From IMG/VR virus record IMGVR_UViG_3300006033_000037, positions 1 through 47,561 of that record: 47,561 nucleotides of DNA; one strand, given 5' to 3'. Within the stretch, counting starts at the first letter, position 1, and every line of letters begins with the position of its first letter. Made by a program: the position numbers and the translations under genes. Positions 23,364-47,320 of this stretch are shown one piece after another. A model generated the notes under the pieces. It did not search any database. It worked only from the letters and a program-made list of their open reading frames with translations, and was not told the origin of the DNA. Source of the stretch: a virus.

Positions 23364-23559
23364 TGAAAATAGACGTTTGCGTAAATTTATATTGACAAAT
23401 AAATTATTAATTAAATTACTTAATGGTATTCTTAGTCATAAATTACCTAAAGATTCGCTAATAGTAGAGATAGGCGTTAATCATGAACACGATGCTATAT
23501 CTTTTATTATACACAGCGATCAATTTGAACCATTGCAAGAGGGAGAATCTGTTTTATGA
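23356..23559 (+). CDS. Small hypothetical protein between giant tail genes
   Basis: A 67-residue protein. It starts with GTG at 23356, inside the end of the giant gene (8-base overlap), with AGGAGA at 23345-23350 as ribosome binding site. It ends in ATGA shared with the next start. The chain is Leu/Ile-rich and helical at the N-terminus (RRLRKFILTNKLLIKLLNGI), then acidic. It has no recognised family. The tight overlaps on both sides favour a real gene. Confidence 0.6.
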   Translation: MDNENRRLRKFILTNKLLIKLLNGILSHKLPKDSLIVEIGVNHEHDAISFIIHSDQFEPLQEGESVL

Positions 23560-28338: not shown

Positions 28339-31300
28339 ATGGCTGATTCCAAAGATAAAATCAAACTTGTTGGCGATACAGAAATAGAATGGTACAATAA
28401 TGTTTCGTCATATCTATATAAAAATGATAAGAAAGATTTTAGAGATGATACACTTGTTGGCAAATATAGAACTTATAATGATAAATTTAGAGACATCACG
28501 TCGCAAAAAGATCATGGCGCACTAAGGATAAATGATCTGTGGTTCTCTATCCCTCCGCAGTCTATATCTATACAAATGACAGAAAACTCAATAGATGTAC
28601 CACAAATAAGAAGTAAACATAGTGTAAAATTAAACACTGGATATGGAGAGGTTGCTGTATCTTTAGATCTAGTTTTCACAGATAATCCAATATTGGGATA
28701 TTCTGTTGACGAAGAGATAATGTATAAATTGCTCCCTCTTATGACACAATTGAGAACTATGCCATTTGTACAAGTGGAGAATGAATTCATACAAGAAAGA
28801 CTACTTGATATAGCTAGGAATCAACTGCAAGTATCTCAAAAAGATATAGATGCGCAAACGGCCATTCGCGGCAAAGATAGCGACATTATGCTTACGTATA
28901 TAAGTCATTCAATATCTACAGTGCAAGAATCGCCGAGAATAATACAGCTATCTCTTCAATTCTCTCTATTTAACTATTTGCCATTTATGTCTTCTGTTCG
29001 ATATGTAAAAGATTATGACAGAGATGGCTCCAATCAATTAATTAGAGATCCTCAATATGATAAATTGATGCGACCCAAAGAGTTTGTATATGATCCATTT
29101 GAGAGTAAGCCATTCTATGAATTCTATGCTGGAGAAATGAAGCGCAGTCAGTTGATATTAGAACAAAATGATTTTTCATCATATAGCCATTCTGGTCATA
29201 GTCAAAATATAGAATTGACATATTTTACATATACAGAATTACGTCGTAGTCTTGTTCCAGCCAAATATGGTGTGCAATTAAAAACTGCTAAGAAAAACTA
29301 TGGCGCCACTACCCTATTACAAAATAAAACACAGAATCCGTCTACATATAGCGGAGTGTATCCTACCAATGGTAAACTTACGTCAAAATTTGGAGAAGAC
29401 AGAGGAGACCATAAACACAATGGCATAGACATAGCAGCCGAAAAGAACACTCCTATATTCTGTGTGTTTGGAGACGGAGTGATTGATTCGGTCAAATATA
29501 ACAATGGTAATGCTGGTAATTCAATAAATATCAAACATGCAGATGGATATATGACAAAATATTTTCATATGAATTCATTTGCTGATGGTATGAAAAAAGG
29601 TTTAGTAGTAAAAAGAAATACTATAATAGGATACGTAGGGAATACTGGTCGCTCAGATGGCAATCATTTGCACTATGAAGTTTGGCAAAATAGTATTCCT
29701 ATCAATCCAGTCGGCAAACAAATGGCTGGCGTATCCGTAGCCGAAATAGCTAAGATATCAGAGGCCGCAAAAGCTTCAAAAGAAAAACCAGTAGAATCTA
29801 CCACTACTTCAAAAGATAAAATAGAAGCAGATAATACTAAATTATACTTAGAAACTTTAGAAAAAGAATATTCTGGTCGGTGGGAATTTGCCATACAAGA
29901 TTTATATTCTGATATTATATATGTAAGAATTAGTCATACGCATAGTTTAGATCTAGATATATTAAGCAATGGAATGAAATTGATTTCCGTGGAAAACACT
30001 GGTGGCAATGATATTCCGCGTATTCCTATAAATGGTTATCAATATGCCACTCATCAATTCCTTGGCGGCCACATAGAGAAACTGCGTTTGTCTTTTGCTG
30101 TAACGGATGAGATGGGCAAAGCCACGCTTAGCGATTTTCAAAATATCATAGCTGTCAATAATGACAATAGTATAAATTATAAAAACGTAGCTTATTTAGA
30201 TGGTATAGGTATTAAAAATGATTTTATTAATACAATAACCGCTAGTCAATGGTTCTCTGTGGATAGCGTAGGGATAGCTACGGATCCAAATATACCAGAC
30301 GCTATGAATGTCGTAGTTGAATTAACAGATTATAGTCGAATAAAAGAATATATAAAACGTAGTTTTGAATTCAAGATGGATAGTAGGAAATATGAAGCTG
30401 CTTTTTATAAAGAATTTATACATGACTTTTTTGGTCAAATACAATATACTTTAAAAATAATAAAAAATCCCAACAATGATATTAGCGGATACACAGACAC
30501 CACAACCGCCACTGCATCAACTTATAAGACGGATATATTCTTAGATTTTCATTTGACGGGCGCCGCCAACGATGCTTTGGCTAATGCGGCTAAAGATTTA
30601 TTTAAATATTTAGAGCAAGTTGAATTTAATGCTACGCCACAGAACAATATATATAATATAAGATCTATATTCGAGAAACGATTAGATAGTGATGGTTTAA
30701 AAGATATATATAAAATGATTTGGACTGGCGCGCCAGGCGTTAAATTAGAAGATATACTGAGAGATTTTGCACTATCTAATTATTCATCTCTATGGGCATA
30801 TTTACCAAACTTCAAAAAGATATATACTAAAGATGCAATAAATGAATTAGAACAGATAGTTTCACCAGCATATGTCGATTTTGATCTTCCGCCTACGATA
30901 GATCCTGACTATTATTGGTATCAACCTCAAAAATATAATTACGTAGATGTCAAACATGAAGAATTTCTCCGTAGTCGTTTTTCTACCGCCCAAAAGACTA
31001 TTGGTGAAAGATTCATCAAGTATAAAGAACAATTGAAATATGCTAAAGTGAACGATCCACAAGATAATACAGCCAATATATTATATAAGCTATATGGTGG
31101 ATATAATAATGGCGAAGATTACAACACTATGAAGTTCGACGATAACTATGGGGAAACCGCTAGCAACTCTTCCTATGAGAATGTCAATATATCTATGGTA
31201 AACAGTGGAGAAATGGGATATGACATAAGAAATGGCGAAAAAAAGACTGATAAACTTAATGATATATATGGTGTAAAAGATGGTTTGGTTAATGCCGACA

Positions 31301-33606
31301 GAGATGCGAACATAGAAGAAGGATTAATGAATAATGTAACGAAAACATTTAATTTTCATTATCAACAGCCAAGTTATCTAGAAGCTCTTTTCCGTGTTCA
31401 TGGTTTTTTGAATTCATTTAGAGATACCACTATGGATATGTCTAGATGTTTTCCAGTATTTAAAGTATATATTATAGAAGAAGATGATATAGAAGTATTA
31501 GCTCCAGTACGATCAGATATAAATGAATACTATGGATTAAACTGCATACAAGAAATACGTCTTGCAGAGCACGACGACCAACCAGTTGACGTACTTACTC
31601 TTCGATTTTTAGATATCACAGGTAGATTCACTTCTACCAGATTTAAAGATAAACCATTTACAGAGAATAAACGTCTTGAAAACAGAGATACGGAGAGAGA
31701 GAATCCATTTGAAGGCATTATGCTAAAAGAAGGATCTCGCCTACAGTTTCGCTTTGGATATAGAAATAATATAAACGAACTTCCTATTAAGTTTAATGGT
31801 CAAGTGGTATCTATAGCTGGAGACAGAAATGAATTTGAGATAATATGTCAATCTTTTGGAGCCGAATTAGTATATGAAAAGAAACATAGTGACAGTCCAA
31901 AAGAAATAGCTACTTTTAATGCTGAGACTAAAGAAATATTAACATGGGCTATTTCTCATCCAGAAATAAAACATTTTGGCAGATGGAAACTTAGATCGTT
32001 GGATAATCTTCAGTTTTCTGAAGGCACAAGTGGTTTAAATATAGATACTCAAGTTATAACTGGCAATAACTATTATTCAAGACTGCGCCCAGATGGCACG
32101 CAACAAAAAACGTGGAGATTTGTTAAGAATCAAGCCGATCTTAATTTTGTTGCGCCAGATGAAAGTAATATTGCTGGCCTAGATGCTATGTTTGGAGATA
32201 TGAGAGATAATTTTCTAGATCATCTACTTTCTACTATTGGCATAGGCATAGACCCAACTTTTACTATAAAAGTTCCTATCTTAGCAGAGTTAATCCGCAT
32301 AATACAAAGCGTGTTCACTAATTATTACGTATATAATATGACTCCTTGGGAAGTGGCAGATGAGATGACATATCGCTATCCTGGATATATATTAAAGGTG
32401 CTTCCTTATGAAGATAGAAATACTCTTTATTATGGGCCGGCGGATGGAAACTATTTTGCTCGCGCTATGAAATTAGGTGAAAAATTAGAATATCATTCGT
32501 GGATGAAAGAACACAAAGCAGAATATGACGCCGCGGTCGCTGCTATGGGATATGGATACACAGAATATGAATATAGAGATGTGTTTACTAAACAAATAAG
32601 AAACGATGCGAAGATATTAAAAGAAGGAAATAAATATAGGTTAAAAACTCTTAAACCTGTACGTCAATATATCAATGCTAGATCAAGTGTCAATATAATA
32701 GCCAATAATATTAAAGCCGACTACAGAGATGTATATACTCGCGTTCAAGTTCCATATGCCAGACCAGATGGAGTTGGAGATAAGGAAGGATGGAAACTGC
32801 AAGATTGGGGCGGTAACTTTATTACTATGCAGATGAATGACTTTTTAGCAGATGAAGATATAAGAAGTACTCAATTGAATTTTCCTAATTGCGTAGGCAA
32901 AGAAGGAGAGGCTACTGGCGCATATAGATATGGAACACATGAACTGTGGAGACAAAGTAAAAAACTATATAAAGGAAATATACAGTTGCTCGCCGAACCT
33001 ACGCTGAAACCATATGATTATATTATATTGGACGATACACATTCAAATACTTTTGGACCTGTAGTTGTCAGAGAGCATATACTATCTATAGCTCCTGGCG
33101 AAGGAGCCGTGTCAAGTGTTGTTCCTGGAATGGTGTCGGATGTTACAAATATGGTTTCTATGACAATGTTAGATACTGTTCGTTATTATATATCTTCAAA
33201 AAATAATATAGATGATACAGAAAGAATAACTGGCGGATATGCCCCAGCGGCATTAGCTGCTGGTAGTGTTTATGGTATAGGTAAAACAATTGCTATGACG
33301 GGTGTTTTAGGTACTATGAGTATAGCATCTGTTCCTATTACGCTGGCTGCATCGCTTGGATTAGCTTCGCTAGCAACCAAACTGGTCTTTGCCGCTAAAT
33401 ATAGAGAACCAGTATTTCTTTCTCCATTAATTAGGAATGGAATACCATATCTTGTCGGGATGAATCATTATAAAATAGGCACAATGATGGAATGGGTAGA
33501 CCACGAATGGAAATTATTCGGAGATGGATTAAGTAATTTTTACGAATACACTGAAATAGGTATGAAAGAAGCATATAGAATGTGGAATGGAGAAAGAGGA
33601 CTATAG
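28339..33606 (+). CDS. Baseplate hub-like protein with embedded M23 endopeptidase domain
   Basis: A 1755-residue protein. Residues about 340-455 are an M23/LytM peptidoglycan endopeptidase: SKFGEDRGDHKHNGIDIA gives zinc ligands His360 and Asp364, and SDGNHLHYEVW gives His443 and His445, all present, so it should be active. On both sides lie related beta domains (WFSIPPQSISIQMTEN near residue 70; YQYATHQFLGGHIEKLRLSF near 570). Residues 1050-1200 resemble hub proteins of the gp27/gpD kind (LTLRFLDITGRFTSTRF, QLRFRFGYRNN-like strand and VSIAGDRNEFEIICQSFGA). Near the C-terminus two apolar segments (residues about 1635-1690, including PITLAASLGLASLATKLVF) suggest membrane contact. It would sit at the tip and cut cell wall during contraction. 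The following 89 bases are a candidate promoter region. Confidence 0.78.
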   Translation: MADSKDKIKLVGDTEIEWYNNVSSYLYKNDKKDFRDDTLVGKYRTYNDKFRDITSQKDHGALRINDLWFSIPPQSISIQMTENSIDVPQIRSKHSVKLNTGYGEVAVSLDLVFTDNPILGYSVDEEIMYKLLPLMTQLRTMPFVQVENEFIQERLLDIARNQLQVSQKDIDAQTAIRGKDSDIMLTYISHSISTVQESPRIIQLSLQFSLFNYLPFMSSVRYVKDYDRDGSNQLIRDPQYDKLMRPKEFVYDPFESKPFYEFYAGEMKRSQLILEQNDFSSYSHSGHSQNIELTYFTYTELRRSLVPAKYGVQLKTAKKNYGATTLLQNKTQNPSTYSGVYPTNGKLTSKFGEDRGDHKHNGIDIAAEKNTPIFCVFGDGVIDSVKYNNGNAGNSINIKHADGYMTKYFHMNSFADGMKKGLVVKRNTIIGYVGNTGRSDGNHLHYEVWQNSIPINPVGKQMAGVSVAEIAKISEAAKASKEKPVESTTTSKDKIEADNTKLYLETLEKEYSGRWEFAIQDLYSDIIYVRISHTHSLDLDILSNGMKLISVENTGGNDIPRIPINGYQYATHQFLGGHIEKLRLSFAVTDEMGKATLSDFQNIIAVNNDNSINYKNVAYLDGIGIKNDFINTITASQWFSVDSVGIATDPNIPDAMNVVVELTDYSRIKEYIKRSFEFKMDSRKYEAAFYKEFIHDFFGQIQYTLKIIKNPNNDISGYTDTTTATASTYKTDIFLDFHLTGAANDALANAAKDLFKYLEQVEFNATPQNNIYNIRSIFEKRLDSDGLKDIYKMIWTGAPGVKLEDILRDFALSNYSSLWAYLPNFKKIYTKDAINELEQIVSPAYVDFDLPPTIDPDYYWYQPQKYNYVDVKHEEFLRSRFSTAQKTIGERFIKYKEQLKYAKVNDPQDNTANILYKLYGGYNNGEDYNTMKFDDNYGETASNSSYENVNISMVNSGEMGYDIRNGEKKTDKLNDIYGVKDGLVNADRDANIEEGLMNNVTKTFNFHYQQPSYLEALFRVHGFLNSFRDTTMDMSRCFPVFKVYIIEEDDIEVLAPVRSDINEYYGLNCIQEIRLAEHDDQPVDVLTLRFLDITGRFTSTRFKDKPFTENKRLENRDTERENPFEGIMLKEGSRLQFRFGYRNNINELPIKFNGQVVSIAGDRNEFEIICQSFGAELVYEKKHSDSPKEIATFNAETKEILTWAISHPEIKHFGRWKLRSLDNLQFSEGTSGLNIDTQVITGNNYYSRLRPDGTQQKTWRFVKNQADLNFVAPDESNIAGLDAMFGDMRDNFLDHLLSTIGIGIDPTFTIKVPILAELIRIIQSVFTNYYVYNMTPWEVADEMTYRYPGYILKVLPYEDRNTLYYGPADGNYFARAMKLGEKLEYHSWMKEHKAEYDAAVAAMGYGYTEYEYRDVFTKQIRNDAKILKEGNKYRLKTLKPVRQYINARSSVNIIANNIKADYRDVYTRVQVPYARPDGVGDKEGWKLQDWGGNFITMQMNDFLADEDIRSTQLNFPNCVGKEGEATGAYRYGTHELWRQSKKLYKGNIQLLAEPTLKPYDYIILDDTHSNTFGPVVVREHILSIAPGEGAVSSVVPGMVSDVTNMVSMTMLDTVRYYISSKNNIDDTERITGGYAPAALAAGSVYGIGKTIAMTGVLGTMSIASVPITLAASLGLASLATKLVFAAKYREPVFLSPLIRNGIPYLVGMNHYKIGTMMEWVDHEWKLFGDGLSNFYEYTEIGMKEAYRMWNGERGL

Positions 33607-33920: not shown

Positions 33921-34420
33921 TGATAGAAACTATATATGGCAAGATAATAAATGTAGATGTAAAAGAAAATGGCAATGTCTATGTGAAGATAGTTGTAGAC
34001 GGCAATGTAATAGGTGAGGGAGAGAGGAGCGGCGAACAGCAAAAGGGTGTGCTTAATTTACCATCTATAAATCAAAATGAGATTAAATATAAATCTATGA
34101 AGATGGGACAAAATTCCCCATCTATGGTAAAAGCATCTTATAATTATTCTAGTCTAATAGGATCGTCTGTTAATAGAATAGTATCAAGCGAAAAACATGG
34201 GAATTTCATCCTCGGCTCAACTACATTTACATCGCATCCAGAAAACATAAGAATAAGCGGAGTCTATAGGTTGAACGGATTACTCACATCTACGATGCCA
34301 AGTACTATAGTCACACCTATACCAATGTTGGTTTTTGATTTTCCACTTACACAAGCTGTGTCTAGTGTAAAAACTATGTTAGAATCATATAATGAAATGA
34401 TAAGTAGTGTGGTATTATGA
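33920..34420 (+). CDS. Baseplate-region protein, OB-fold-like
   Basis: A 166-residue protein. I place the start at ATG 33920 (TAATG overlap with the previous stop); the frame continues open to 33815 upstream but that part overlaps the previous gene and has no start signal. The N-terminal strands (TIYGKIINVDVKENGNVYVKI) have the alternating pattern of a small beta barrel such as the OB-fold found in spike or hub proteins, followed by a loop rich in Gly and Gln (GERSGEQQKGVLNLPS). The last third is helical (DFPLTQAVSSVKTMLESYNE). It overlaps the gp25-like gene by four bases (ATGA). A spike or hub accessory role is inferred from position. Confidence 0.55.
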   Translation: MIETIYGKIINVDVKENGNVYVKIVVDGNVIGEGERSGEQQKGVLNLPSINQNEIKYKSMKMGQNSPSMVKASYNYSSLIGSSVNRIVSSEKHGNFILGSTTFTSHPENIRISGVYRLNGLLTSTMPSTIVTPIPMLVFDFPLTQAVSSVKTMLESYNEMISSVVL

Positions 34421-34839
34421 ATACACCAGTAAGAAGAATAGTGGATTTAAAAGAAACGGTTAATGGCGATCTAGTAATTGTCGCTGGCGACCTATCAGAC
34501 ACCGGCAGCGATTATCCTCTCGCCACAGAACAATTATTTAGAACAATACTAAATACTAAAGTTGGCGAATCACTTCTTTTCCCATATATGGGATTTAATG
34601 CAGATACATACGAAGGAAAGAATAATACAGAAAAACTAGGCTATCAGATCGCGCGCGCTGTAAAAGAGACGCTTGTAGACCACTCTCCTTTCTATGCTAA
34701 TGAAATAACTACAGACGCTTATCCATTAACAAAAAATTCTATAGCTATAAGAATAGTTGTTCACACTGTTGGAGAAAGATTAACTATGACGATGGTATAC
34801 GATACATCCACTAATATGATAAAAAGCATGGTGGTATAA
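34417..34839 (+). CDS. Baseplate wedge protein, gp25-like
   Basis: A 140-residue protein. The order of elements fits the gp25/gpW-like wedge family: a GDLVIVAGDLSDTG start, the LATEQLFRTILNTKVGESLL helix (family pattern 'A..Q.i...L.T..GE..y.P..G') followed by FPYMGFN, and a helix (YQIARAVKETLVDHSPFYAN) with a C-terminal strand pair (IAIRIVVHTVGERLTMTMVY). In myoviruses gp25 joins the sheath base to the wedge and starts sheath assembly. It starts within the preceding stop (ATGA) and its stop overlaps the next short gene (TAATG). The length matches the family. Confidence 0.65.
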   Translation: MNTPVRRIVDLKETVNGDLVIVAGDLSDTGSDYPLATEQLFRTILNTKVGESLLFPYMGFNADTYEGKNNTEKLGYQIARAVKETLVDHSPFYANEITTDAYPLTKNSIAIRIVVHTVGERLTMTMVYDTSTNMIKSMVV

Positions 34840-34966: not shown

Positions 34967-37900
34967 ATGTCTTTTAAATTAAAATACACTGGTTCTCAGA
35001 TAGACGATCTATTAACCAAAATAGATTCTATAAGTAATCCAATGTCTCTTATGGGGACAATATCTTCTGCAAGCGACTTTCCAACAGTAGCAGATGTCTT
35101 TGCTGGCGCTATTTATATAGCTACGGCCGCCGTAACAGATAACGATGTAAGCAAGACGAATACTGGTCTATCGTTTTTATCTGGAGACGAGATAATATGG
35201 GATGGCACTACATGGGTAGAACTTGGCCCATATCAATATTGGGCGCTGCTCGGCAATAGAATAATTCCAGTATCTAATCGTCAACTAGCGATGCACAATG
35301 GCGACAAAACCTATCCAGCATACTCATTTTCAAATTTTGTATCGTCTGGTATATTTGCTGGCTCAGATGGCTCTTTACATATATCTCTTGCCGACACAGA
35401 TTTAATACAAGTTGCTACATCTGGACACTTTACTCCGGTCACAGCCGCACAGGATTTAGGCTCTTCGTCTATGCCATGGAGAAAAGTATATGCGCTGGAG
35501 ATAGTGTCTACCTCAAGTGCTATAACCGCAGAGACAGGTTTGGTCGTCGGCAAATCCGGCGGAATAAACGGTTCTATTACTTTCGTGGCTAGTGATAATG
35601 ATCAAGGTACTATATCTATTAATACAGCAGACTCTTTAGTCTTGGCTGGCTTCGGTGGTGGATATAGTTTTGATTCTAAGATTTATCCCGCAACAGACGA
35701 CGGCGCCGCCTTGGGAGATGGAACGCATAACTGGTCGGATTTATGCCTAGCCTCTGGCGCAACGATTAACTACGCAAACAGCAACGTAATTCTAACTCAT
35801 ACCTCTGCAACTCTTACTCTTGGAACTGGAACATTAAAAATTACCACCCCAACTAATACAGCTAACTCTGTAGTGACGATCGACGGCACGCAAACTCTGA
35901 CGAACAAAACATTAACCAGTCCATATATAAACGAAGCAGTAGCTTTAACCACTACAGCCACTAAACTTAACTACCTCACCAGCGCGGCGGGCACGACTGG
36001 AACTACGTCTACCAATCTAGTTTTCTCTACCTCTCCTACTTTAGTTACACCTATCTTAGGAGTAGCTTCTGCTACTTCATTGGCTACATCTGCTGCTATT
36101 CCTTTATTAATGACTAATGGTCAATTAGTAAATATTTCTTTAACTGCTCAAACTTCTGGTGCTACGACTTTAACAATTCCAGATTTTGCTGGCGTAGTTG
36201 ATGAGTTTACATTCAAAACAAAAGCGCAAACATTAAGTAACAAAACATTTGTTGCTCCCGCTCTTGGCGTTGCTACTGCCACCTCTTTATCCATCGGTGG
36301 TGCAACGATTGGAAGTAATGTTCTTGCAATTACGGGTGCTTCGGCTTTTAGTGGAGTTAACACAATGGTTGCTACTGGCGCTAATGTAACGTTAACAGTA
36401 ACAGGCGATGATGCTCAACAACCTTTTGTTGTAAAATCAACAAATGGAGTTCTTGGTTTTAAGACCGGAGTAAGCTCTAATACAAATTATGTTCGTTCAT
36501 TAAATGGTGCTCAAAGTAGTTATCAGGCGTTAGTTTTTGAAGCATCTTCTTATACTTTTGGGCAAAACGGCGGAGTAAGTATTGGTGGTGCAACAATAGG
36601 CACTAACGCGTTAGCGGTAACGGGGACAGCATTGTTTAATAATAGTATATCAATCGCAAACGCTCAATCAATACAACTAAGCGGTGGTGATGTTATTATA
36701 TCATCAACTAACGGCGGTTCATTCTCTGTTACTAACGGCGGTGTATTGACGAACGGCAACACTATATTAGGAGCGTCCGCAATCGGGACATTATTTTTGA
36801 AGAATGGATCAACAAATTCTGTTTCAATAACCTCCGGCAACGCCACTTTTGCGGGAAGTGTAACGATAAATAATTCCGGCTATAATAGCTCTTTGAGCAT
36901 AATGTCAGACGGGGCAAATGTTAGTAAGATTAAAGAATTAAATAGCGGACATATTGAATATTGGGGATATACACATACATTCAAATCTCATACAGGAACG
37001 ACAAAATTAACTCTTGATGCTACCGGAACAACTACTTTTGCTGGTTCTATCCTTGCTGCTGCTGGTAGTGCTGCAAGTCCTTCTATTAGTTTTAGTGGTG
37101 ATACTAATACTGGTTTATATTCTGTTGGCGCAGACTCTTTAGGTATAGCAGTTAATGGTACAAACGCAGTTACTGTTACTACTACTGGTGTCGGCATCGG
37201 GACGACGGCACCGGGATCATATAAGTTAAATGTAAATGGTTCTCTTTCTACTCTTGGTGGTAACTTTACCGTTACAGAGAATTCTTCAAATGTTTATTTG
37301 CAAAGTTATAGTTCTAAACCTCTTTATATAAATAATGATGGAAATACTATTACCACGGGGGCAGCGTTAATATCTGGAGGATCGATTCGTCCATCAGTAG
37401 ATAGTTCTTATAGTTTAGGAACGAATACATATTATTGGTCAAGTACTTATACGGATAATTTATATACCACCGGCAACGTCGGCATCGGTCTTACTAATCC
37501 TTCTCTTACTTGCACAATATCTTCTACTGGTACTTTTGGTTGGGATAATGGTAGTGGTACTGGTGATGTAGTACTAAGAAGAGAAGCAGCAAACACATTG
37601 GCGCTGCGTAATTCTACTTCTGCTCAAACCTTTAATATATATAATACATATACTGATGCTTCAAATTACGAAAGGACACAATTCTTATGGTCATCAAGCA
37701 TATTTAAGATAAATGATTCTTTTTTAGGAACCGGTGTTACAAGAGCTTTTGAATTCTCTAACTTCTCAAGTTATACTTTTGATAAAACTGTAAAGACAAC
37801 ATCTCTTAATCTAACTGGTATACAAGAAATTAGCGCGGCGACATATACTATCTTGGCAACAGATAGTGTTATAAGAGCTAATGCTTTAAGTAATTCTATT

Positions 37901-38095
37901 ACGCTTACTTTACCTCCTGTCGCAACAAATTTGGGAAAATTAGTAATAATTAAGAAAACAGATACGAGTTCTAATCAAGTTATTTTAGATGGTAACGCAA
38001 GTGAATTGATAGAAGATGCGTTGACGTTGACGATGTATGACACTTTTGATAGTTACAGTTTAATAGCTACTTCAAGTGGTTGGATAATTGTATAA
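34967..38095 (+). CDS. Tail fibre protein
   Basis: A 1042-residue protein with no enzyme motif and a strong Thr/Ser/Gly/Ala bias. Residues 1-120 form an N-terminal attachment part (MSFKLKYTGSQIDDLLTKID helix, then a small beta domain). The middle contains short repeating units typical of trimeric fibres: QTLTNKTLTSPYINE, LGVASATSLAT, IGGATIGSNVLAITGASAF, IGGATIGTNALAVTGTALF, TGVGIGTTAPGSYKLNVNGS and GNVGIGLTNPSL. The C-terminal 90 residues (about 950-1042) form a globular tip (EISAATYTILATDSVIRANA ... SLIATSSGWIIV), a domain common at the ends of phage fibres. No intramolecular chaperone is visible. It is the first gene of the adhesin cassette and is followed by a 49-base gap. Confidence 0.78.
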   Translation: MSFKLKYTGSQIDDLLTKIDSISNPMSLMGTISSASDFPTVADVFAGAIYIATAAVTDNDVSKTNTGLSFLSGDEIIWDGTTWVELGPYQYWALLGNRIIPVSNRQLAMHNGDKTYPAYSFSNFVSSGIFAGSDGSLHISLADTDLIQVATSGHFTPVTAAQDLGSSSMPWRKVYALEIVSTSSAITAETGLVVGKSGGINGSITFVASDNDQGTISINTADSLVLAGFGGGYSFDSKIYPATDDGAALGDGTHNWSDLCLASGATINYANSNVILTHTSATLTLGTGTLKITTPTNTANSVVTIDGTQTLTNKTLTSPYINEAVALTTTATKLNYLTSAAGTTGTTSTNLVFSTSPTLVTPILGVASATSLATSAAIPLLMTNGQLVNISLTAQTSGATTLTIPDFAGVVDEFTFKTKAQTLSNKTFVAPALGVATATSLSIGGATIGSNVLAITGASAFSGVNTMVATGANVTLTVTGDDAQQPFVVKSTNGVLGFKTGVSSNTNYVRSLNGAQSSYQALVFEASSYTFGQNGGVSIGGATIGTNALAVTGTALFNNSISIANAQSIQLSGGDVIISSTNGGSFSVTNGGVLTNGNTILGASAIGTLFLKNGSTNSVSITSGNATFAGSVTINNSGYNSSLSIMSDGANVSKIKELNSGHIEYWGYTHTFKSHTGTTKLTLDATGTTTFAGSILAAAGSAASPSISFSGDTNTGLYSVGADSLGIAVNGTNAVTVTTTGVGIGTTAPGSYKLNVNGSLSTLGGNFTVTENSSNVYLQSYSSKPLYINNDGNTITTGAALISGGSIRPSVDSSYSLGTNTYYWSSTYTDNLYTTGNVGIGLTNPSLTCTISSTGTFGWDNGSGTGDVVLRREAANTLALRNSTSAQTFNIYNTYTDASNYERTQFLWSSSIFKINDSFLGTGVTRAFEFSNFSSYTFDKTVKTTSLNLTGIQEISAATYTILATDSVIRANALSNSITLTLPPVATNLGKLVIIKKTDTSSNQVILDGNASELIEDALTLTMYDTFDSYSLIATSSGWIIV
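36291..36630 (+). repeat. Imperfect direct repeat within fibre gene
   Basis: The sequence GGTGGTGCAACGATTGGAAG (about 36296) is repeated as GGTGGTGCAACAATAGGCAC (about 36584), 288 bases on, within longer similar units at roughly 36291-36340 and 36579-36630. Both encode IGGATIG(S/T)N followed by (V/A)LA(I/V)TG, repeated fibre units. Substitutions are mostly silent or conservative, so this is an older duplication within the fibre shaft. Confidence 0.6.
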
Positions 38096-38144
38096 GAATA
38101 ATATGCGCATAAAAGAATAATAAAATTTTGTTAAGGAATTAAAA

Positions 38145-41100
38145 ATGAGCTACCTCTCAAAATCAGGAACGATTGCGCTGAGCGAAAGAGATCAGGCAAT
38201 GAAGGCTTGTGGCGTATTTAACGGAGTGGATAATTATATTGCAATTTCACCCGACCCGACAACCACGACATATAATTTTTCAAGCGACACTGTTGGGCAG
38301 GCTCCTATTGACTGGGAAATAACTTCGGGAGCTTATACTGTTCAATCAGCTTCCCCTTCTCCTTTTGGTTCTGCCGCGAAATATTTAAGATGTGATACCG
38401 CTGGAGTAATTAGTATTCCTTCTACTTGGGCATTTGGTACAATAGAAATGGATGTGTATAAAGCTCTTACTGGTAATTCGTTAAGGACAATACCAATAGC
38501 ATCTGCAACAAGTGGTTGGGCAGGGTATTCTCTTAACATTTTTGATACCGAAGATATAAATTTAAGCAGGGCAGTAGGTGGAGTAAACAACGAAAGTAAA
38601 TTAAATTCTGCTGCTTCTTATATCGCCAACGCTACTTGGTACAGATTAAAAGTAGTTCGCAATGAAGCTGGTGTATTTTCAGTTTATATAAAAGCTAATG
38701 TAGGTGGTAATTACGTTCTCGTAAGTACAAGTGGAGGAGGTGGTCAGAATCCAGTCACCGACTTAACCTATACTACATCAAAATATTTTGTACTTGATCT
38801 TGATGCGGGGGACTGCATAAGTGAGATTGTATTAAACTCGGCAGTAGGACAATTCGATTTAAATGGTTATGAACATATTACTGATAGTCAGAATAGAGAT
38901 TTTGAAGAAGTGTTAGGACAAGAATTAATAACGGTTACGGCTGACAGGGATTTTAGTGGCGCGAATAATTGGGCTAATGTAACGTTAAGTGCTTTTGATA
39001 GTTCTGGTGATTTGACTATATCTTCAACAGCAAGTGGTCAGTATTGTGGGTTAGCAGCTACTTATGCTCCTTTAGTAGTAGGTAAAACGTACAGACTAAC
39101 TGTTACAGGCAGTGCTTTGTCTGGGAATTCTTTTTCTATTAGAGATAGGGATGCTTATATTTTCGATGGGGTGTCTGATAATGTTTTAGTAAGTGGTACA
39201 AATACATTTACATTTATATATAATCCAACTGGCGGTTCTAAAATAGGTGGATTTGCATTAAGAGCTTCTGGAACTGGAAGTATTACATTAGATAATGTTT
39301 CCGTTAAAGAAGTAGGAACCCATTTTGGTAGTGAACTTGTAACAAATGGAAGTTTTGCAAGCGATACTGATTGGGCAAAAACTGCGTCAGGTTCTACAAT
39401 ATCAGGTGGAATACTAACATTAAATAATTCTGACGGAACCATTGCAGATGTTTTTGCTTATCAAGATATTACGACAGTAGTAGGAAAAGTCTATAAAGTT
39501 TCTTTTGATATAACAGCACTAACATTTGGAAGCTCGCAGTATTTACTTGTTGCGGATAATGCTAACGCTGCTTTTTATAGAAGCTATCGCACCGCTGGGA
39601 CGCAAAACATATTTACTTTTGTGGCTAATGCCGTAACGACTCGCCTTATATTTAGAAGGCTTTCCGCTGGCAGTGGTACTGAGTTTAATCTAATAGCTGG
39701 TATCGACAACGTCTCCGTCAAAGAAGTCCTATCAGAAACTAATGTTCTTCCAGCTCAAGATTTTACAAGTGGGTGGGCTACTGAATCACTGACAACAATA
39801 AATAGTTCTACTAAATTCACTACATCGGCAAATGGTTATGGTATTTATAAAACAGCTATATTTACAATAGGTAAGACGTATAAAATGAGAATTGCTGGTT
39901 ATACGACTTCATCCTTTGCTATTGTAAATTCAGGTAACGGCACTAGTTATTCTGGGCTTATCGGTACAGGAGCTTTTGATAATAGTTTCGTTTTTACTCC
40001 ACAAGGTAATCAGACGTTGTATTTACAAAATTCTACTGCTGGTGTCACAGAAATCTTCAAAATGGAACTCTATGAAATCCAAACTACCTTTAACGACAGT
40101 TATTTGGCGCATAGAAGATCGGGAAGTTTTAATGGAACAGATAATTATGTTTCAGTAGCGGATAATGATAACTTAGATTTTGGGATTAATGATTTTACGA
40201 TTTCTTTTACTATTAATTTTGCATCTTTAGCAAATGCACCATATTTGTTTAGAAAAATTGATGGTAGTGGTGGTTATTTCATATTAATGAATTCGGATGG
40301 AACTGCTAGAGTGTATGTAGGTTTAACAGAATTTAATAATCTTAATATTGGAACAGTTTCGTTAAATACAAATTATCATTTTGATTATGTTTTCAATCGT
40401 TCTGGTAATTTACTTATTTATAAAAACGGAGTACTCGCTAATACTACGAATATTTCTGGTGCATCAGCTCAGATTTGTTCTTCTCCAACTGCACTAAGCC
40501 TATCTATAAGTTCAGTTTATACGTTAAATGGTAAAATATACCAATCCCGTCTCTTCAACCGAGCATTAAGCGCAGCAGAAGTTCTCACATATTACAACGG
40601 GGGCAGACCAGAATTATATAGAACTCCAGTAGCAGACTTTGGTGCTAGCCAGACAGAATTGATAACAGTTGCTGCTGATAGAGATTTTAGTAGTGATACT
40701 GGATTTTGGGTCAAAGGAACTGGTTGGACTATATCTGGCGGTACAGCTAATGTAAATGGAACATTAGATCTCGGCACTGGTACTAGTCTTTGTAAGGTAG
40801 GATTTTTAACAATTGGTAAAACGTATAAACTCACATATACTATAAGTAATTATGTTTCTGGCATTCTCGGATTACAAGTCCCAAATGTGAATTTAGGTTC
40901 TTCAAATGGAACGTTTTCAGTTACATTTGTTGCTACGAATACACAATTAGGTTTTAATAAGTTAAGTGGTTCCTCAAACCCAACAGTTTTAAGTATAGAC
41001 AATGTATCAGTAGTCCAAGTCGGTGTCGTAGCAGAATATAAATTCAATCAAGTAAGTGGAACTACAGTACATGATTATTCTCTTAATGGTTTACATGGCA

Positions 41101-42803
41101 CTGTTAATGGAACGACTACTAATTTTTGGCAAAGAGAAAACTATGGTAATCATTCAGTTGAAATATCAGATGTAGATAAAAAAGCTGGGACATACAGTGC
41201 GAAAATAATTTCTACTGGTGTAGGCGATGGAACAAGTAATTATATTCAACTTCCTTCAACTTCTCTTAACCCATTAGAATCAGCTAAAAAATATACTATT
41301 GAAGCTTGGGCAAGAGGAACTGGAGTGTTAGGTTCGGATTTAGCAAGTGGATGGAATTTTACGAGTGGATGGTTGGTCGGGAGTGGTGCAACAGTAAGTG
41401 ACAATAATACTTTTGTAACATCATCAGGCACAAACAGTTGGATATTCAAGGCTTATTTTACAACTGGTTTAACTTATCAAGTTTCTATTTCTGGAACTGT
41501 TTCTGCCGGTAATTTAACTATTTATGATGGCAATGTTACATCTGGCGGTTATAAAACTGTAACAGGAACTTTTAATGAAACATTTAATTTAGTAGCTCTG
41601 AATACTTATATCCTTCTCAAAACATCCCAAGCAGCAACAGTAGACATTACTACTTTAACAGTCAAAGAAGTAACTCTCCCAACAACTACTCTTCAAATAG
41701 GTTCTCAGTCTAAATCTATTAGCTCAATTTCTTGCGTTCCGGGTACATTCACTAAACTTGTTTGGAACTTCCTCGCAACATCAAACGAAGTTGCACAAGC
41801 GTTAAAAGTCTGGGCTAATCAAGCAGACGGAATATATTTAGACCAAGTAAGTGTAACACAAGCTTATGATATGGTAATTACAGGGCAAGTCAGAGTTGGA
41901 AGTGCCTATACAACTGGCGGACAGTATATCTATTCTAGAAGAAGTGGTGGGGTTCCATATGTCCAATTTGGTTATAACAATACTTTAATAGCAGTAGAAA
42001 TATATGATGCTAATAGTTCAACATCTATTAGTTATAGTACACCTACTGTTTCAGATAAACGTAATCATACTATATATGCCTTATTAGATAAAATAAATGG
42101 AATAAAAGTAGGATATGATGGTTTATTAGGGACATCTAACTCTTTTAATATGTACGGGAATATGAATAATACACTTCCCTTGCTGTTAGGTAAGGACGCT
42201 ATTTCAAGTTATAATAACGGCAACATCTCAGACGTTCAACTAATCCGTTTCTCAGATATCGCATCATCTAATTTTAATGCTGCTACTGCTTATAACTACT
42301 ATATACAGTCAGGGAAATATCCTCAAGTAACTGGTGGTGGTGCTACGATTATTTTTGATAGCGCAATTAATGATGGTCACGCTTATCAAGTTAAAGATAA
42401 GTCTACTTATAAAAAACATGGTGTATTAAATGGAACTATAACTGAGTTCTGGAATAATAAACCTTTATACTTTGAGCAAGAATATACTTTCAAAGCTTCT
42501 CAAATAAGTGCTTCTGCTGCTACCACTGCTCTGCTTAAACTTCCAGCTAATGTTAAGGTAGTAGAAATAAGTGCTGATATAGAAAAGTTTTCTTCTGATG
42601 TAACTTTAAGCTTAGGTTATAGTGGAAGTGATGCTTGGTTGGCTACAATAACTGGAACCAATGTTAATGATAGTAAAGGTGTTACTGTTGATAAAGCTTA
42701 TTCTTCCTTAACAGAGAAACAACTTTATATTAAGAAGTCTGCTGCTACTACTTATGGTAGAATTAAATTGAGAATTAAATTTGAATATCTAAAGGAAGTT
42801 TAG
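38145..42803 (+). CDS. Modular adhesin: LamG and carbohydrate-binding-like repeats
   Basis: A 1552-residue protein. After a short start (MSYLSKSGTIALSERDQAMK) there is a jelly-roll domain (about 40-235). Then come repeated beta modules (about 260-390, 394-528, 532-645 and 835-962), most opening with a form of ELITV.ADRDFS and closing with (I/L)DNVSVKEV, the plan of CBM4/9-like carbohydrate-binding domains. A LamG-like domain lies at about 648-825 (SFNGTDNYVSVADNDNLDFG ... RLFNRALSAAEVLTYYNGGR). Near 1065-1180 another binding module appears inserted into a further jelly roll. The last 150 residues (EQEYTFKASQISASAATTAL ... LRIKFEYLKEV) recur at the end of the adhesin at 42947. It is likely a receptor-binding adhesin of the tail. 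AAGGA lies before the ATG. Confidence 0.75.
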   Translation: MSYLSKSGTIALSERDQAMKACGVFNGVDNYIAISPDPTTTTYNFSSDTVGQAPIDWEITSGAYTVQSASPSPFGSAAKYLRCDTAGVISIPSTWAFGTIEMDVYKALTGNSLRTIPIASATSGWAGYSLNIFDTEDINLSRAVGGVNNESKLNSAASYIANATWYRLKVVRNEAGVFSVYIKANVGGNYVLVSTSGGGGQNPVTDLTYTTSKYFVLDLDAGDCISEIVLNSAVGQFDLNGYEHITDSQNRDFEEVLGQELITVTADRDFSGANNWANVTLSAFDSSGDLTISSTASGQYCGLAATYAPLVVGKTYRLTVTGSALSGNSFSIRDRDAYIFDGVSDNVLVSGTNTFTFIYNPTGGSKIGGFALRASGTGSITLDNVSVKEVGTHFGSELVTNGSFASDTDWAKTASGSTISGGILTLNNSDGTIADVFAYQDITTVVGKVYKVSFDITALTFGSSQYLLVADNANAAFYRSYRTAGTQNIFTFVANAVTTRLIFRRLSAGSGTEFNLIAGIDNVSVKEVLSETNVLPAQDFTSGWATESLTTINSSTKFTTSANGYGIYKTAIFTIGKTYKMRIAGYTTSSFAIVNSGNGTSYSGLIGTGAFDNSFVFTPQGNQTLYLQNSTAGVTEIFKMELYEIQTTFNDSYLAHRRSGSFNGTDNYVSVADNDNLDFGINDFTISFTINFASLANAPYLFRKIDGSGGYFILMNSDGTARVYVGLTEFNNLNIGTVSLNTNYHFDYVFNRSGNLLIYKNGVLANTTNISGASAQICSSPTALSLSISSVYTLNGKIYQSRLFNRALSAAEVLTYYNGGRPELYRTPVADFGASQTELITVAADRDFSSDTGFWVKGTGWTISGGTANVNGTLDLGTGTSLCKVGFLTIGKTYKLTYTISNYVSGILGLQVPNVNLGSSNGTFSVTFVATNTQLGFNKLSGSSNPTVLSIDNVSVVQVGVVAEYKFNQVSGTTVHDYSLNGLHGTVNGTTTNFWQRENYGNHSVEISDVDKKAGTYSAKIISTGVGDGTSNYIQLPSTSLNPLESAKKYTIEAWARGTGVLGSDLASGWNFTSGWLVGSGATVSDNNTFVTSSGTNSWIFKAYFTTGLTYQVSISGTVSAGNLTIYDGNVTSGGYKTVTGTFNETFNLVALNTYILLKTSQAATVDITTLTVKEVTLPTTTLQIGSQSKSISSISCVPGTFTKLVWNFLATSNEVAQALKVWANQADGIYLDQVSVTQAYDMVITGQVRVGSAYTTGGQYIYSRRSGGVPYVQFGYNNTLIAVEIYDANSSTSISYSTPTVSDKRNHTIYALLDKINGIKVGYDGLLGTSNSFNMYGNMNNTLPLLLGKDAISSYNNGNISDVQLIRFSDIASSNFNAATAYNYYIQSGKYPQVTGGGATIIFDSAINDGHAYQVKDKSTYKKHGVLNGTITEFWNNKPLYFEQEYTFKASQISASAATTALLKLPANVKVVEISADIEKFSSDVTLSLGYSGSDAWLATITGTNVNDSKGVTVDKAYSSLTEKQLYIKKSAATTYGRIKLRIKFEYLKEV

Positions 42804-42805
42804 CT

Positions 42806-42931
42806 ATGAATAAAGAAGATAAATTATTGTTGATTAAGACCATTGTGCTCGCCGTCATACTAGCTTTGCTCCTATGGCACGCTTCTACTATTGTTCCAAG
42901 AACACATTATAATCCAGAATTTTTTAAATAA
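42806..42931 (+). CDS. Small single-pass membrane peptide (41 codons)
   Basis: ATG 42806 to TAA 42931 encodes 41 residues: a charged start (MNKEDK), an uninterrupted apolar helix (LLLIKTIVLAVILALLLW, residues 7-24) with one Lys, and a polar end (HASTIVPRTHYNPEFFK). It fits one membrane-spanning helix. It begins two bases after the large adhesin stops; a GGAAG lies 7 bases upstream inside the end of that gene. It is followed by the second adhesin 15 bases on. A small holin- or spanin-like, or an anti-receptor membrane role, are options; nothing in the sequence decides. Confidence 0.55.
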   Translation: MNKEDKLLLIKTIVLAVILALLLWHASTIVPRTHYNPEFFK

Positions 42932-42946
42932 TAGGGAACGAATATT

Positions 42947-44398
42947 ATGAGTTATTCAATAGGAAGAAATGCGCTAAAAGAATTTGATATAAATAGAGCA
43001 ATCTATGGAAAGTTTGATGGATTGACTAACTATGTATCTGTACCTGATAATGTTAATTTGAATTTAGTAAATAATTTTTCAGTTGAAATATTTTTTAGCA
43101 CAAAGAGTTTTACTAATTGCGAATTATATAATAGGTATTCAACAACCGGTTCTAACAGACAAATAATAATAAGAATTGTTAATTCTACAAATGTCAGAGT
43201 TATTTTGTCGGCTGATGGCGTGAATACCTCGATTTATGATATAAGTGTGCCAACTATAACTTTGAATTCTTTATACCATTTATTTGTTATTAAAACAACG
43301 ACAAATATAGCTTTATATTTGAATGGCGTGTTTATTTCAAATACTACTGTAGTAGATACGATTTCGGTATCTGCGTCGTCTTACATAGGAGGGTATTTAT
43401 TTGGCGGTTCTCCAGTCTTTACGCTTAGTAATATCTATCTAACCCGTCTTCATAATCGAGCACTCTCAGCAAGTGAAGTCTTAGCTTATTATAATCAAGG
43501 TCGTCCAGACCTCTATCAAATTCCATATGCTGATAGATGGGGAAGCCAAACAGAATTGATAACAAATAGCGCCAATAGAGATTTTAGCAGTGATACTGGA
43601 TTTTGGACAAAAGGAACTGGTGTAACTATCGCAGATAATGTTGCACATTTCGTTGATGTTCCTGTTGGAGTAAACGGTCTCTTAAGAGCGACATTAATGT
43701 CTACAGGAAAACAGTATAAACTAACATTTACAATTAGTAATTTCGTTAAAGGTTCATTAACTATATTTTTTGGTAGTACACAGGCAGTAGCCCTATCTGC
43801 AAATGGAACATATTCTATAACAATGGTTTCCTCAGGAAATAATTATATTTATTTTGCTTGTGGTGTTATATCTACATTTGATATAGATGATGTTTCTTTA
43901 GTACAGGTTGGCGCAGTAGCAGACTACCGTTTCAACGAAGGTTCCGGTTATCAAATTAAAGACTACTCAACTAACAAGTTACATGGTACATTAAATGGTA
44001 CTTATGATAACTTCTGGCAGAATAATAAACAATTCTTTACAGCAGAGCTTACATTTTTACATAGCGCAATTAGTTCAACTGCTGCTACTACAACATTATT
44101 CAAACTTCCAGCTAATGTAAAAATAAAAGAGCTAATAACTGACCCAACAGTTGCTTTCGATACTGATAATACAATAAGCTTAGGTATAAGTGGTAATGAT
44201 ACGTGGTTAGCTACTTTAACTGGAACTAATACTACTACTCCTCAATATGCTAATGTTGATAAAATGTATTCGCCTAATAATGAAGTACAATTATATATTA
44301 AAAAATCTGGTGCTAGTTCTGCTGGTTCTATAACTTTGAAATTTAGATTTGAAAATATGAACTACAAAGGTGGTACTAATTGCAACCCGATATTATAA
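42947..44398 (+). CDS. Modular adhesin, shorter paralogue
   Basis: A 483-residue protein related to the 1552-residue adhesin. Its start (MSYSIGRNALKEFDINRAIY) and the whole C-terminal domain (FFTAELTFLHSAISSTAATT ... ITLKFRFENMNY) match. Its LamG domain (residues about 20-185, ending NRALSASEVLAYYNQGRP) matches the internal LamG of the large protein, and the binding module at about 200-325 (QTELITNSANRDFSSDTGFW ... FDIDDVSLVQVGA) matches its 835-962 copy. The linker 'RFNEGSGYQIKDYSTNKLHG' corresponds to KFNQVSGTTVHDYSLNGLHG. It looks like a minimal version of the same adhesin. It has AGGGA upstream. Two adhesins with shared ends may be alternative receptor binders. Confidence 0.75.
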   Translation: MSYSIGRNALKEFDINRAIYGKFDGLTNYVSVPDNVNLNLVNNFSVEIFFSTKSFTNCELYNRYSTTGSNRQIIIRIVNSTNVRVILSADGVNTSIYDISVPTITLNSLYHLFVIKTTTNIALYLNGVFISNTTVVDTISVSASSYIGGYLFGGSPVFTLSNIYLTRLHNRALSASEVLAYYNQGRPDLYQIPYADRWGSQTELITNSANRDFSSDTGFWTKGTGVTIADNVAHFVDVPVGVNGLLRATLMSTGKQYKLTFTISNFVKGSLTIFFGSTQAVALSANGTYSITMVSSGNNYIYFACGVISTFDIDDVSLVQVGAVADYRFNEGSGYQIKDYSTNKLHGTLNGTYDNFWQNNKQFFTAELTFLHSAISSTAATTTLFKLPANVKIKELITDPTVAFDTDNTISLGISGNDTWLATLTGTNTTTPQYANVDKMYSPNNEVQLYIKKSGASSAGSITLKFRFENMNYKGGTNCNPIL

Positions 44399-44413
44399 AA
44401 GGAATTAAATAAA

Positions 44414-44674
44414 ATGGAAATAATTACTCAGAATAGTTTCACTGTTGGTGATAAAGTCAGAATGCACTATGACCCAGTTACGGGTGAACATGGGATGCAG
44501 ATAAAAGTGCAAGTAGGAGAAGCAGTAGTAAAAGGAAGTCCTTTAGCTGTAAGTGCTGCCGCTAATAATAAATATATAAAACAAACGTCTGGATACGATG
44601 TTGTTTGTATAGCGTATGAAGCTGGGTCTACTGATGGGTATATTTGGGGCTTGGGATACCGGTGCAGTTTGTAA
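44414..44674 (+). CDS. Small beta-rich virion-like protein, N-terminal frame (frameshifted)
   Basis: Residues 1-86 of an apparently split gene, with AAAGGA upstream of the ATG. The frame reads VGDKVRMHYDPVTGEHGMQI, VVKGSPLAVSAAANNKYIKQ and SGYDVVCIAYEAGSTDGYIW, then continues only nine codons to a stop at 44672-44674. Translation of the overlapping frame from 44649 continues naturally as AWDTGAVCKVLFKE. Skipping one G of the GGGG run at 44646-44649 joins the two frames into one protein of 157 residues. The combined protein is beta-rich and of the size of small decorating or tail-associated proteins. No firm family is recognised. Confidence 0.6.
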   Translation: MEIITQNSFTVGDKVRMHYDPVTGEHGMQIKVQVGEAVVKGSPLAVSAAANNKYIKQTSGYDVVCIAYEAGSTDGYIWGLGYRCSL

Positions 44675-44888
44675 AGTATTGTTCAAAGAAAACACAGGTT
44701 CTACAAGAGGCTTTGTTGCTTTAAGTAGTTTGACTGATGGTTATTGTGAAGATATTGATCTTGCTACTATTGGTGGTTCTCCTGCGACTGATGCTCATTT
44801 CCGTGAAATAGGGCATGTAAAAGAAACAGTAGCTGCTGCTGGTGCTGGAACATACCAATTAGTGCTAATTCATTTTCATACTTTATAA
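44616..44888 (+). CDS. Small beta-rich virion-like protein, C-terminal frame (frameshifted)
   Basis: The C-terminal part of the split gene starting at 44414. The open frame begins at ATG 44616, but no ribosome binding site precedes it and its first ten residues (MKLGLLMGIF) are an out-of-frame reading of the upstream gene; the real sequence most likely joins at 44649 (AWDTGAVCKVLFKE). It then continues NTGSTRGFVALSSLTDGYCE, ATIGGSPATDAHFREIGHVK and AGAGTYQLVLIHFHTL to the stop at 44888. The next gene starts 15 bases later with AAGGAG. Confidence 0.6.
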   Translation: MKLGLLMGIFGAWDTGAVCKVLFKENTGSTRGFVALSSLTDGYCEDIDLATIGGSPATDAHFREIGHVKETVAAAGAGTYQLVLIHFHTL

Positions 44889-44902
44889 AGGAGTAAATAA
44901 CA

Positions 44903-45190
44903 ATGATAGTATTAGATAATGTAGCAAAACAATTTGGAGTAAATGAAAACTTCCAACCGTTTACTGAAAAAGTGCAAGTATTATTTGATGAATTAAAGGA
45001 GGAATTTCCTGGCATTATACGTCTGCATATATATGGAGATATTACTACCGTGGAAAAAGAGATAGACGGTCTATCTGGCGTGATTGAACAGATGGCTACT
45101 GGCGAAGGGTTATTGAGTAAAGTCGAGGCCTCTTTTATCAACGATGTAATTAACATAGAGGAGAAAAGCAATGATCTTTTGGTGGAATAA
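44903..45190 (+). CDS. Small hypothetical protein
   Basis: A 95-residue protein with AAGGAG 10 bases before ATG. It is mixed helix and strand (FTEKVQVLFDELKEEFPGII, RLHIYGDITTVEKEIDGLSG). The C-terminal half is acidic and helical (SKVEASFINDVINIEEKSND). It overlaps the metallopeptidase gene by 20 bases, which makes co-translation likely. No family is recognised. Confidence 0.55.
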   Translation: MIVLDNVAKQFGVNENFQPFTEKVQVLFDELKEEFPGIIRLHIYGDITTVEKEIDGLSGVIEQMATGEGLLSKVEASFINDVINIEEKSNDLLVE

Positions 45191-45575
45191 AAGAAATTGG
45201 GACAAAGTTAGCGAATACGATAAACATATTTATAAATATTCTGATTTCATCATTTGTGATCCAGATAAAGATCTTGACATATATCTAGCTGTCGGCTGGC
45301 CGAAGGGTAATATCCTCGGCACATACGCTGGCAAGAAGGGTATGTTTGTTAGAAATAATGAAGATCCTATATCTGTAAGATCTACTATACAACATGAATA
45401 TATTCATCATAAATATAGATTGGAGTGGGATAGAAGATATGGTAAGATTCTTGGTTTTATCCTCTATTGGGGATGGGCCGGAGCCAACTACCTCGGCGGC
45501 TTTCTAGGTATATATACGCATGATACTATGCCATTTGAAAGAGAAGCTGAGAAAGCAGAAATTAAACGTCAATAA
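45171..45575 (+). CDS. Second putative HExxH zinc metallopeptidase
   Basis: A 134-residue protein with ribosome binding site GAGGAG 10 bases upstream of ATG 45171. IQHEYIHHKYRLEW gives candidate ligands His75 and His79 with Glu76. Near the end, DTMPFEREAEKAE matches the 'PxExEA' helix that supplies the third ligand (a Glu at 123, 125 or 127) in several phage-encoded and bacterial HExxH families. Between the two, residues 93-115 (ILGFILYWGWAGANYLGGFL) form a strongly apolar segment, perhaps a membrane insertion. It has no similarity by eye to the HExxH protein at 23556 other than the motif. It lies in the adhesin cassette, where a processing or host-surface role is possible. Confidence 0.62.
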   Translation: MIFWWNKRNWDKVSEYDKHIYKYSDFIICDPDKDLDIYLAVGWPKGNILGTYAGKKGMFVRNNEDPISVRSTIQHEYIHHKYRLEWDRRYGKILGFILYWGWAGANYLGGFLGIYTHDTMPFEREAEKAEIKRQ

Positions 45576-45594
45576 TAAATTACAAGGATGCATT

Positions 45595-45966
45595 ATGTGG
45601 ACAATTGAAGTTGAACCGAAACAAATTTATGTAGATGAGAATAAGCCTAGAGTTAGCGTGGTGCAAATATATCCAGTTAATTTCGAGCCAGAGATCGGCT
45701 TAACATTCAGAGTGGCCGGCTGCACTGGATTTAAGCAATTGATATTCGAGGATGTAGAAAAATTGGTGGAGACGACGAAAGAAGACGGCTCTACTGTTTT
45801 AGAGCATGTTACTGAAAGAGTTTCCAGAGAAGTTATTCATTCTGGCAATGAGTTATCTAGTGATTTAGTAAAAATTGAGGGCGAAGAATACACAAACTGG
45901 ACTGGCGGCGACCTGCCCTATCTAGAAAACATCATCTTGTCGTCTTGCGGATATAAAAAAGCATAA
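45595..45966 (+). CDS. Hypothetical protein at end of adhesin cassette
   Basis: A 123-residue protein. I chose ATG 45595 (MWTIEVEPKQIYVDE) because AAGGA (45584-45588) lies six bases upstream; a longer in-frame reading from 45520 overlaps the peptidase gene and has no start signal. It is beta-rich, with VVQIYPVNFEPEIGLTFRVA and EYTNWTGGDLPYLENIILSS, and has two cysteines (AGCTG and SSCGY). The E-rich middle contains the helix KLVETTKEDGS. No family is recognised. It is the last gene before a terminator. Confidence 0.6.
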   Translation: MWTIEVEPKQIYVDENKPRVSVVQIYPVNFEPEIGLTFRVAGCTGFKQLIFEDVEKLVETTKEDGSTVLEHVTERVSREVIHSGNELSSDLVKIEGEEYTNWTGGDLPYLENIILSSCGYKKA

Positions 45967-46114: not shown

Positions 46115-47320
46115 ATGGCTCTTTTTTCTAAAGATAGTGAACAAATAGTTAATGATGCGATAGCATTTATGAGGGCCAATACCGTACTTACGGCAGATAG
46201 TCCTGGCGCCAAATTTCGTACTTTAGTAGAGATAATAAGAACTGAATTAAACGATGCATATGCTACGTTTGATGCCAATACTGCTATTGCTATGATATAT
46301 GGTGCAAGAGGTAAATATCTAGATTTTCTTGGTGAGATGTTCAAAGTTTATCGCATTAAATCATCTGCCGCTGGTGTAGATAGCGAGCATGAGAATATAA
46401 AGTTCTATACTAAGAGCGGGGCAACATTTTCATCTATAAATAGTAATTCCAATTTTACTATTCCGAAAGGCACAAAAGTGTGGGCTCAAAGAGACGGCAA
46501 TAATTTAGAGTTTATACTTACCCAAGATCTACTCGTCAACAAAACTGTGACAGAAGCTTTTGCCTCGGCCAAGGCGTTGCGTAATGGCGTAGAGTATAAC
46601 GTGGCTACCGGCGCTATAAATCAACATAATTTTACTTCCTATGCAGATAGCATTAACTCGTCTCTTTTGGTTACAAATGTACAGGCTGTGGATAATGGTA
46701 TAGATACCGAGAGTGACGAAAACTATAGATATAGGATAATGAATAGTCGGTTGCAAGACTTATCGGCTAATAAAACTGCTGTAACTATGGCGGCTTTGGC
46801 CGTCCCAGGCGTAGCTGACGTGGAAATACTAGACAAATATTTCGGTATAGGCACGTCTGCCGTGTTGATAAAATCTACTACTCCTACGGTATCAGATAAT
46901 TTAGTAGCTGAAGTTCAAGTAGCAATTGACAGCGTCAAGGGAGAGGGCATAGATTTACTAGCTATGAAGCCAGTATATAGCACTATGAAGTTCGTTATAG
47001 GCTTAAATTACAAAGAAGTGCTCAGCGCTCAAGAAGAGTTAAATATAGAAAATGCAGTAAAGCAAACCGTTGTCAATACTGTAAATAATCTAGATGTCGG
47101 CCAAGGCTTTTCTATTAATGAGCTCGCAAATGCTATATTGCTGACGGATAGCAGGATAAAGAGTATTGGTACGCCAAACAAATTCTTTAATAGAATATAT
47201 GTAATAAAGACCACTAGAAGTGGCGCGACAATCATTAATGAGATACAAAGAGATTATTCAGTGAGCCAATTTAACAAGTTGATCATTTCTACGGATATAG
47301 ACGCCGTGAGTTTTGTATAA
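46115..47320 (+). CDS. Baseplate J-like protein
   Basis: A 401-residue protein. It shows the order of the baseplate J/gp47/T4 gp6-like wedge family: a helical start (DSEQIVNDAIAFMRANTVL), a segment beginning SPGAKFRTLVEIIRTELNDA, then ARGKYLDFLGEMFKVYRIKS (the family's 'G..LD..g...g..R' region). It is followed by FTIPKGTKVWAQRDGNNLEF (the typical 'ip.Gt.v'), AQAVDNGIDTESDENYRYRI-type segment (DTESDENYRYRIMNSRLQDL, 'G.d.Es.e.fr.Ri'), and an ALAVPGVADVEILDKYFGIG strand. This is a wedge component of the contractile baseplate. GAGG lies before its ATG and a strong promoter upstream. The stop overlaps the next start (TAATG). Confidence 0.85.
   Translation: MALFSKDSEQIVNDAIAFMRANTVLTADSPGAKFRTLVEIIRTELNDAYATFDANTAIAMIYGARGKYLDFLGEMFKVYRIKSSAAGVDSEHENIKFYTKSGATFSSINSNSNFTIPKGTKVWAQRDGNNLEFILTQDLLVNKTVTEAFASAKALRNGVEYNVATGAINQHNFTSYADSINSSLLVTNVQAVDNGIDTESDENYRYRIMNSRLQDLSANKTAVTMAALAVPGVADVEILDKYFGIGTSAVLIKSTTPTVSDNLVAEVQVAIDSVKGEGIDLLAMKPVYSTMKFVIGLNYKEVLSAQEELNIENAVKQTVVNTVNNLDVGQGFSINELANAILLTDSRIKSIGTPNKFFNRIYVIKTTRSGATIINEIQRDYSVSQFNKLIISTDIDAVSFV

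Follow-up and report, generated by a model that had tools for sequence, protein, structure and literature searches.

A probable non-programmed one-base frame break in a small fibre-cassette gene from a large myovirus

The closest described counterparts of the split gene reported here are the singletons of the GeneTack survey of prokaryotic genomes (PMC3711429), in which two coding frames are joined by one missing or extra base and the second half has neither a ribosome-binding site (RBS) nor a conserved counterpart. That survey put two thirds of its orphan single breaks down to sequencing errors or indels, and inferred recoding in 146 of its 19,430 clusters. The length of a homopolymer decides the reading frame in tract-based phase variation, for example in Campylobacter (PMC8808543), and the genome-wide survey took runs of at least 7 nt as its criterion for variation of this kind (PMC3711429). 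Net +1 changes of frame are known from prfB and from Listeria phage PSA; in PSA the shift, in a gene of the virion region, takes place at a proline codon that adjoins a stop or pseudoknot, and between them these two systems use a proline, CUU or stop context. PRFect treats 'four' as a possible forward motif where the A-site codon of the +1 frame is used more often than that of frame 0. The locus described here shares both the one-base junction and the second half without RBS or conserved counterpart with the survey singletons, and differs in that it lies on a metagenomic virus contig whereas they come from complete genomes. It is an ordinary kind of frame break.

The window, that is the whole stretch of DNA analysed, is an entire IMG/VR virus record of 47,561 bases and is itself a fragment. 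Its gene content reads like a structural module from a large tailed phage, with a terminase (C-terminal part), capsid and sheath genes, a tape-measure-like gene, and baseplate and fibre genes; the source virus is taken to be a large myovirus. The predicted major capsid protein shares 69% and 55% identity with its counterparts on two contigs of ~155 kb, and 30-34% identity with the capsid proteins of Bacillus phage KLEB27-3, Moorella phage MTATph1 and Acinetobacter phage ME3. The split gene and its surroundings are listed in Table 1. The two baseplate genes that flank the fibre cassette are adjacent in a related 154-kb contig (L009, 14512-14988 and 14990-16204), whereas 11 kb of fibre-type genes separate them in the window; the other related contig (end of L011, start of L010) carries a different gene set beside its baseplate J gene. 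A phmmer search of all ORFs of these two nearest large phage contigs detected no relative of the window's cassette genes, and a search for the cassette elsewhere, queried with the neighbouring genes, found none. Since the cassette lies between conserved genes and is without relatives in the related contigs, the split gene belongs to an exchangeable cassette, and the interval as a whole has the look of a hot spot at which host-recognition genes are exchanged.

Table 1. Positions, in window coordinates, of the split gene, its signals and its surroundings
Feature	Coordinates	Strand	Remarks
ORF1, first half of the split gene	44414..44674	+	86 aa in frame 0 from ATG 44414, stop ending at 44674; codon-frame posterior 1.0 up to ~44640
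Frame +1 portion (second half) of the split gene	44649..44888	+	79 codons plus stop
Mechanical ORF2	44616-44888	+	from ATG 44616, without RBS
GGGG run, likely but unproven frame-break site	44646..44649	+	codon likelihood brackets the shift
AAGGA-type RBS of the split gene (approximate)	44399..44405	+	AAGGA ~10 nt before ATG 44414
Upstream neighbour, fibre/adhesin-like, Laminin_G_3	42947..44398	+	Pfam PF13385, E = 2.5e-12
Downstream neighbour, orphan, 95 aa	44903..45190	+	intact, with RBS
Fibre cassette holding the split gene	34967..45966	+	between two conserved baseplate genes
Conserved baseplate genes flanking the cassette	34417-34839; 46115-47320		adjacent in contig L009

A first-pass annotation of this DNA had proposed that the frame opening at 44414 and the frame closing at 44888 become one 157-residue protein if a single G of the GGGG run is skipped, and this we confirm: with one G unread, the joined frame stays open through the junction YIW-AWDTGAV to the distal stop. 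Frame 0 has a codon-frame posterior of 1.0 up to ~44640, frame +1 scores as coding between ~44650 and the distal stop, the last ~8 residues of ORF1 lie outside the gene's frame, and the frames of ORF1 and ORF2 overlap by 59 nt. Over the 79 downstream codons, codon-usage scoring favours frame +1 over frame 0 by 94 nats, compared with a median of 82 nats for true frame minus off-frame in the window's known genes, and in only 2 of 2412 trials was an off-frame stretch as long as these 79 codons open; the second half is thus not a chance ORF. The mean log p values of the two halves (-3.84 and -3.85, as against -3.81 for the window's genes) are accompanied by third-position GC and codon usage that match those genes in both halves, and because 79 codons pass without a stop the downstream half is undecayed. 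A Shine-Dalgarno match is present for ORF1 (AAGGA) and for nearly all neighbouring genes, whereas, as the first-pass annotation had also noted, ORF2 has none before its ATG. Both halves are therefore coding behind a single start signal, with the switch inside one gene, as in a single-gene indel break, and ORF1 together with frame +1 constitutes one 157-codon gene.

Codon statistics place the change of frame at about 44636-44660, or more broadly 44620-44660, and both intervals include the GGGG run. Before the run frame 0 is favoured by 3.9 nats and after it frame +1 is favoured by 6.0 nats; the shift points with the highest codon likelihood are 44636, 44633 and 44648, all within 2 nats, and both halves stay open for any shift point between 44616 and 44674. 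The run is the likely site of the break. Its coincidence with the shift is only suggestive, since a stretch of 59 nt holds a G/C run of at least 4 with a chance of 4% and any run of at least 4 with a chance of 63%.

Translational coupling of two separate genes, with ORF1 giving 86 aa and ORF2 restarting at TTG 44679 or at ATG 44616 or 44634, is a less likely and in our judgement improbable reading of these data. Start codons are indeed present at each of these positions (the TTG, 5 nt past the ORF1 stop, is the only start near that stop), several genes in the window overlap, and phages commonly have overlapping genes. However, frame +1 is already coding at 44649-44672, ahead of the TTG, frame 0 is still coding past ATG 44616 (by the 6.0 and 3.9 nats given above), and ATG 44616 lacks a Shine-Dalgarno match. 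Programmed +1 frameshifting, which the first-pass annotation offered among its explanations and which at UGG-GGC would yield an 86-aa and a 157-aa product, fares worse: the site shows neither a known +1 motif nor a rare codon, a stop or a structure, and the other in-frame copies of UGG-GGC in the window (25774 and 32806) are decoded normally, as are five more UGG-GG sites, all within unbroken genes. Two coding frames with a 59-nt overlap and four identical bases at the switch would suit such a mechanism, as would the greater frequency of the +1 A-site codon GCT (35.0 per thousand) over the 0-frame codon GGC (19.4), the relation that the PRFect 'four' motif wants; yet GGC at 19.4 per thousand codons is itself common and has no stop directly after it. 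Re-pairing of a P-site UGG on GGG produces a first-position mismatch, which argues against a shift here. Folding was no better than that of shuffled sequences (z of +1.5, -0.45 and +0.6), inspection by eye of the stretch ahead of the shift site showed no SD-like element, and the shift lies within one small protein. Listeria phage PSA likewise changes frame by a net +1 in a gene of the virion region, but the split gene has none of the features of that shift site, neither the proline codon nor an adjacent stop or pseudoknot, and it has no CUU context either. We infer that decoding at this site is not programmed and consider a programmed shift very unlikely; that a new kind of +1 frameshifting at UGG-GGC would be the sole route to a full-length fibre-cassette protein, regulating its amount in the virion, is a shade less credible still. 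If real and programmed, the site would be an unusual one, and nothing in the analysis favours that.

Least probable of all is phase variation, with the length of the G tract turning a host-recognition gene on or off, even though the gene sits in a fibre cassette that is wholly different between related phages. The tract has only four G, short of the at least 7 nt that the published survey required (PMC3711429), and is not special, since 40 G or C runs of 4 nt or longer occur across the window. A pattern scan of viral contigs that allowed a run of three, four or five bases within the junction sequence matched no contig. As in Campylobacter, homopolymer length would decide the frame; unlike the tracts described there (PMC8808543), this one is four bases long and no length variants were seen.

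The best explanation, to which we give a probability of roughly 83%, is a non-programmed one-base indel in a single fibre-cassette gene. One base would have been inserted (or, equivalently, two bases lost) at or near the GGGG run of the 157-codon gene, and in the sequence as written translation would end after 86 residues. A sequencing error and a real inactivating indel are accordingly the two of the four options put forward in the first-pass annotation that survive, phase variation and programmed shifting being the two that found no support. An error or minor variant in a single metagenomic consensus is nearly an even prospect; the complete lack of decay in the downstream half tips the balance slightly towards it and away from a fixed mutation. 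A genuine inactivating mutation is somewhat less likely and, given that undecayed half, would have to be very recent. A coding-frame Viterbi scan that allowed shifts across the 47.6-kb contig returned a single mid-gene switch, at 44636, the others (2243, 2812, 6384, 33918 and 45176) all being ordinary junctions of overlapping genes, and each of ~25 window genes with relatives in the two large phage contigs aligns in a single frame. The window sequence is thus generally good, so that one isolated error in 47 kb is credible and so is one real indel, and the freedom of the rest of the contig from frame errors mildly weakens an error in favour of a real change. The proportions reported in the GeneTack survey (PMC3711429) agree with our weighting of error or indel over recoding. 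The case calls for caution, since on this metagenomic contig one base is enough to split a small gene, and annotation would therefore list two hypothetical proteins for one.

Searches for homologues of the joined 157-residue protein found none in phages, plasmids, IMG/VR, GTDB contigs, PHROGs, Pfam, NCBIfam or PDB, and phmmer gave no match among all ORFs of the related contigs. Because no full-length homologue was found, the intact form has been seen nowhere beyond its reconstruction here, a point against the indel reading. A tblastn search of INPHARED phages gave nothing better than E 0.7; matches in PA5oct (E of at least 0.7) were rejected as homologues, as they fall within an unrelated block of small hypothetical genes. 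ORF1 has non-significant matches to phrog_766 (E 0.11) and phrog_673 (E 0.011), and pieces of the joined protein match phrog_673 at E 0.019-0.03, whereas the full joined protein finds neither family at E<=1. These head decoration/scaffolding families resemble the split gene weakly and non-significantly over residues ~22-77 (E ~0.01-0.1) and differ from it in setting, since it lies among fibre and baseplate genes and not head genes. The earlier description of the gene as virion-like is plausible from its place among fibre genes, but the homology is sub-significant. Judged by its position, the gene probably encodes a small accessory protein of the virion and belongs with the receptor-binding (fibre) functions of the cassette. 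Single-sequence AlphaFold modelling of a near-identical version (G for A at residue 79) gave a pLDDT of 30.

Several other features of the contig were noted. The terminase frame at 2-328 opens with a predicted intein C-terminus (TIGR01443, 20.9 bits against a cut-off of 15.6; ...LLANGIRIFN|C), and because it starts in this way the terminase appears to be interrupted by an intein, the N-terminal part of the intein lying off the contig. The 1755-aa baseplate/tail protein encoded at 28339-33606 has an inserted Peptidase_M23 domain (E 3.5e-25) and is likely a cell-wall-cutting tail component. Two neighbouring fibre proteins, at 42240-42800 and 43907-44395, have a common C-terminal domain with 51% identity; no relative was found when the second protein was compared with phage records and the domain alignment with viral contigs. 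Finally, the protein at 45171-45575 matches the metallo-protease family phrog_87 at an E value of only 0.07, and the HExxH motif that it and the small protein at 23556-24035 contain (HEYIH, HEVIH) suggests that both are putative zinc metalloproteases.
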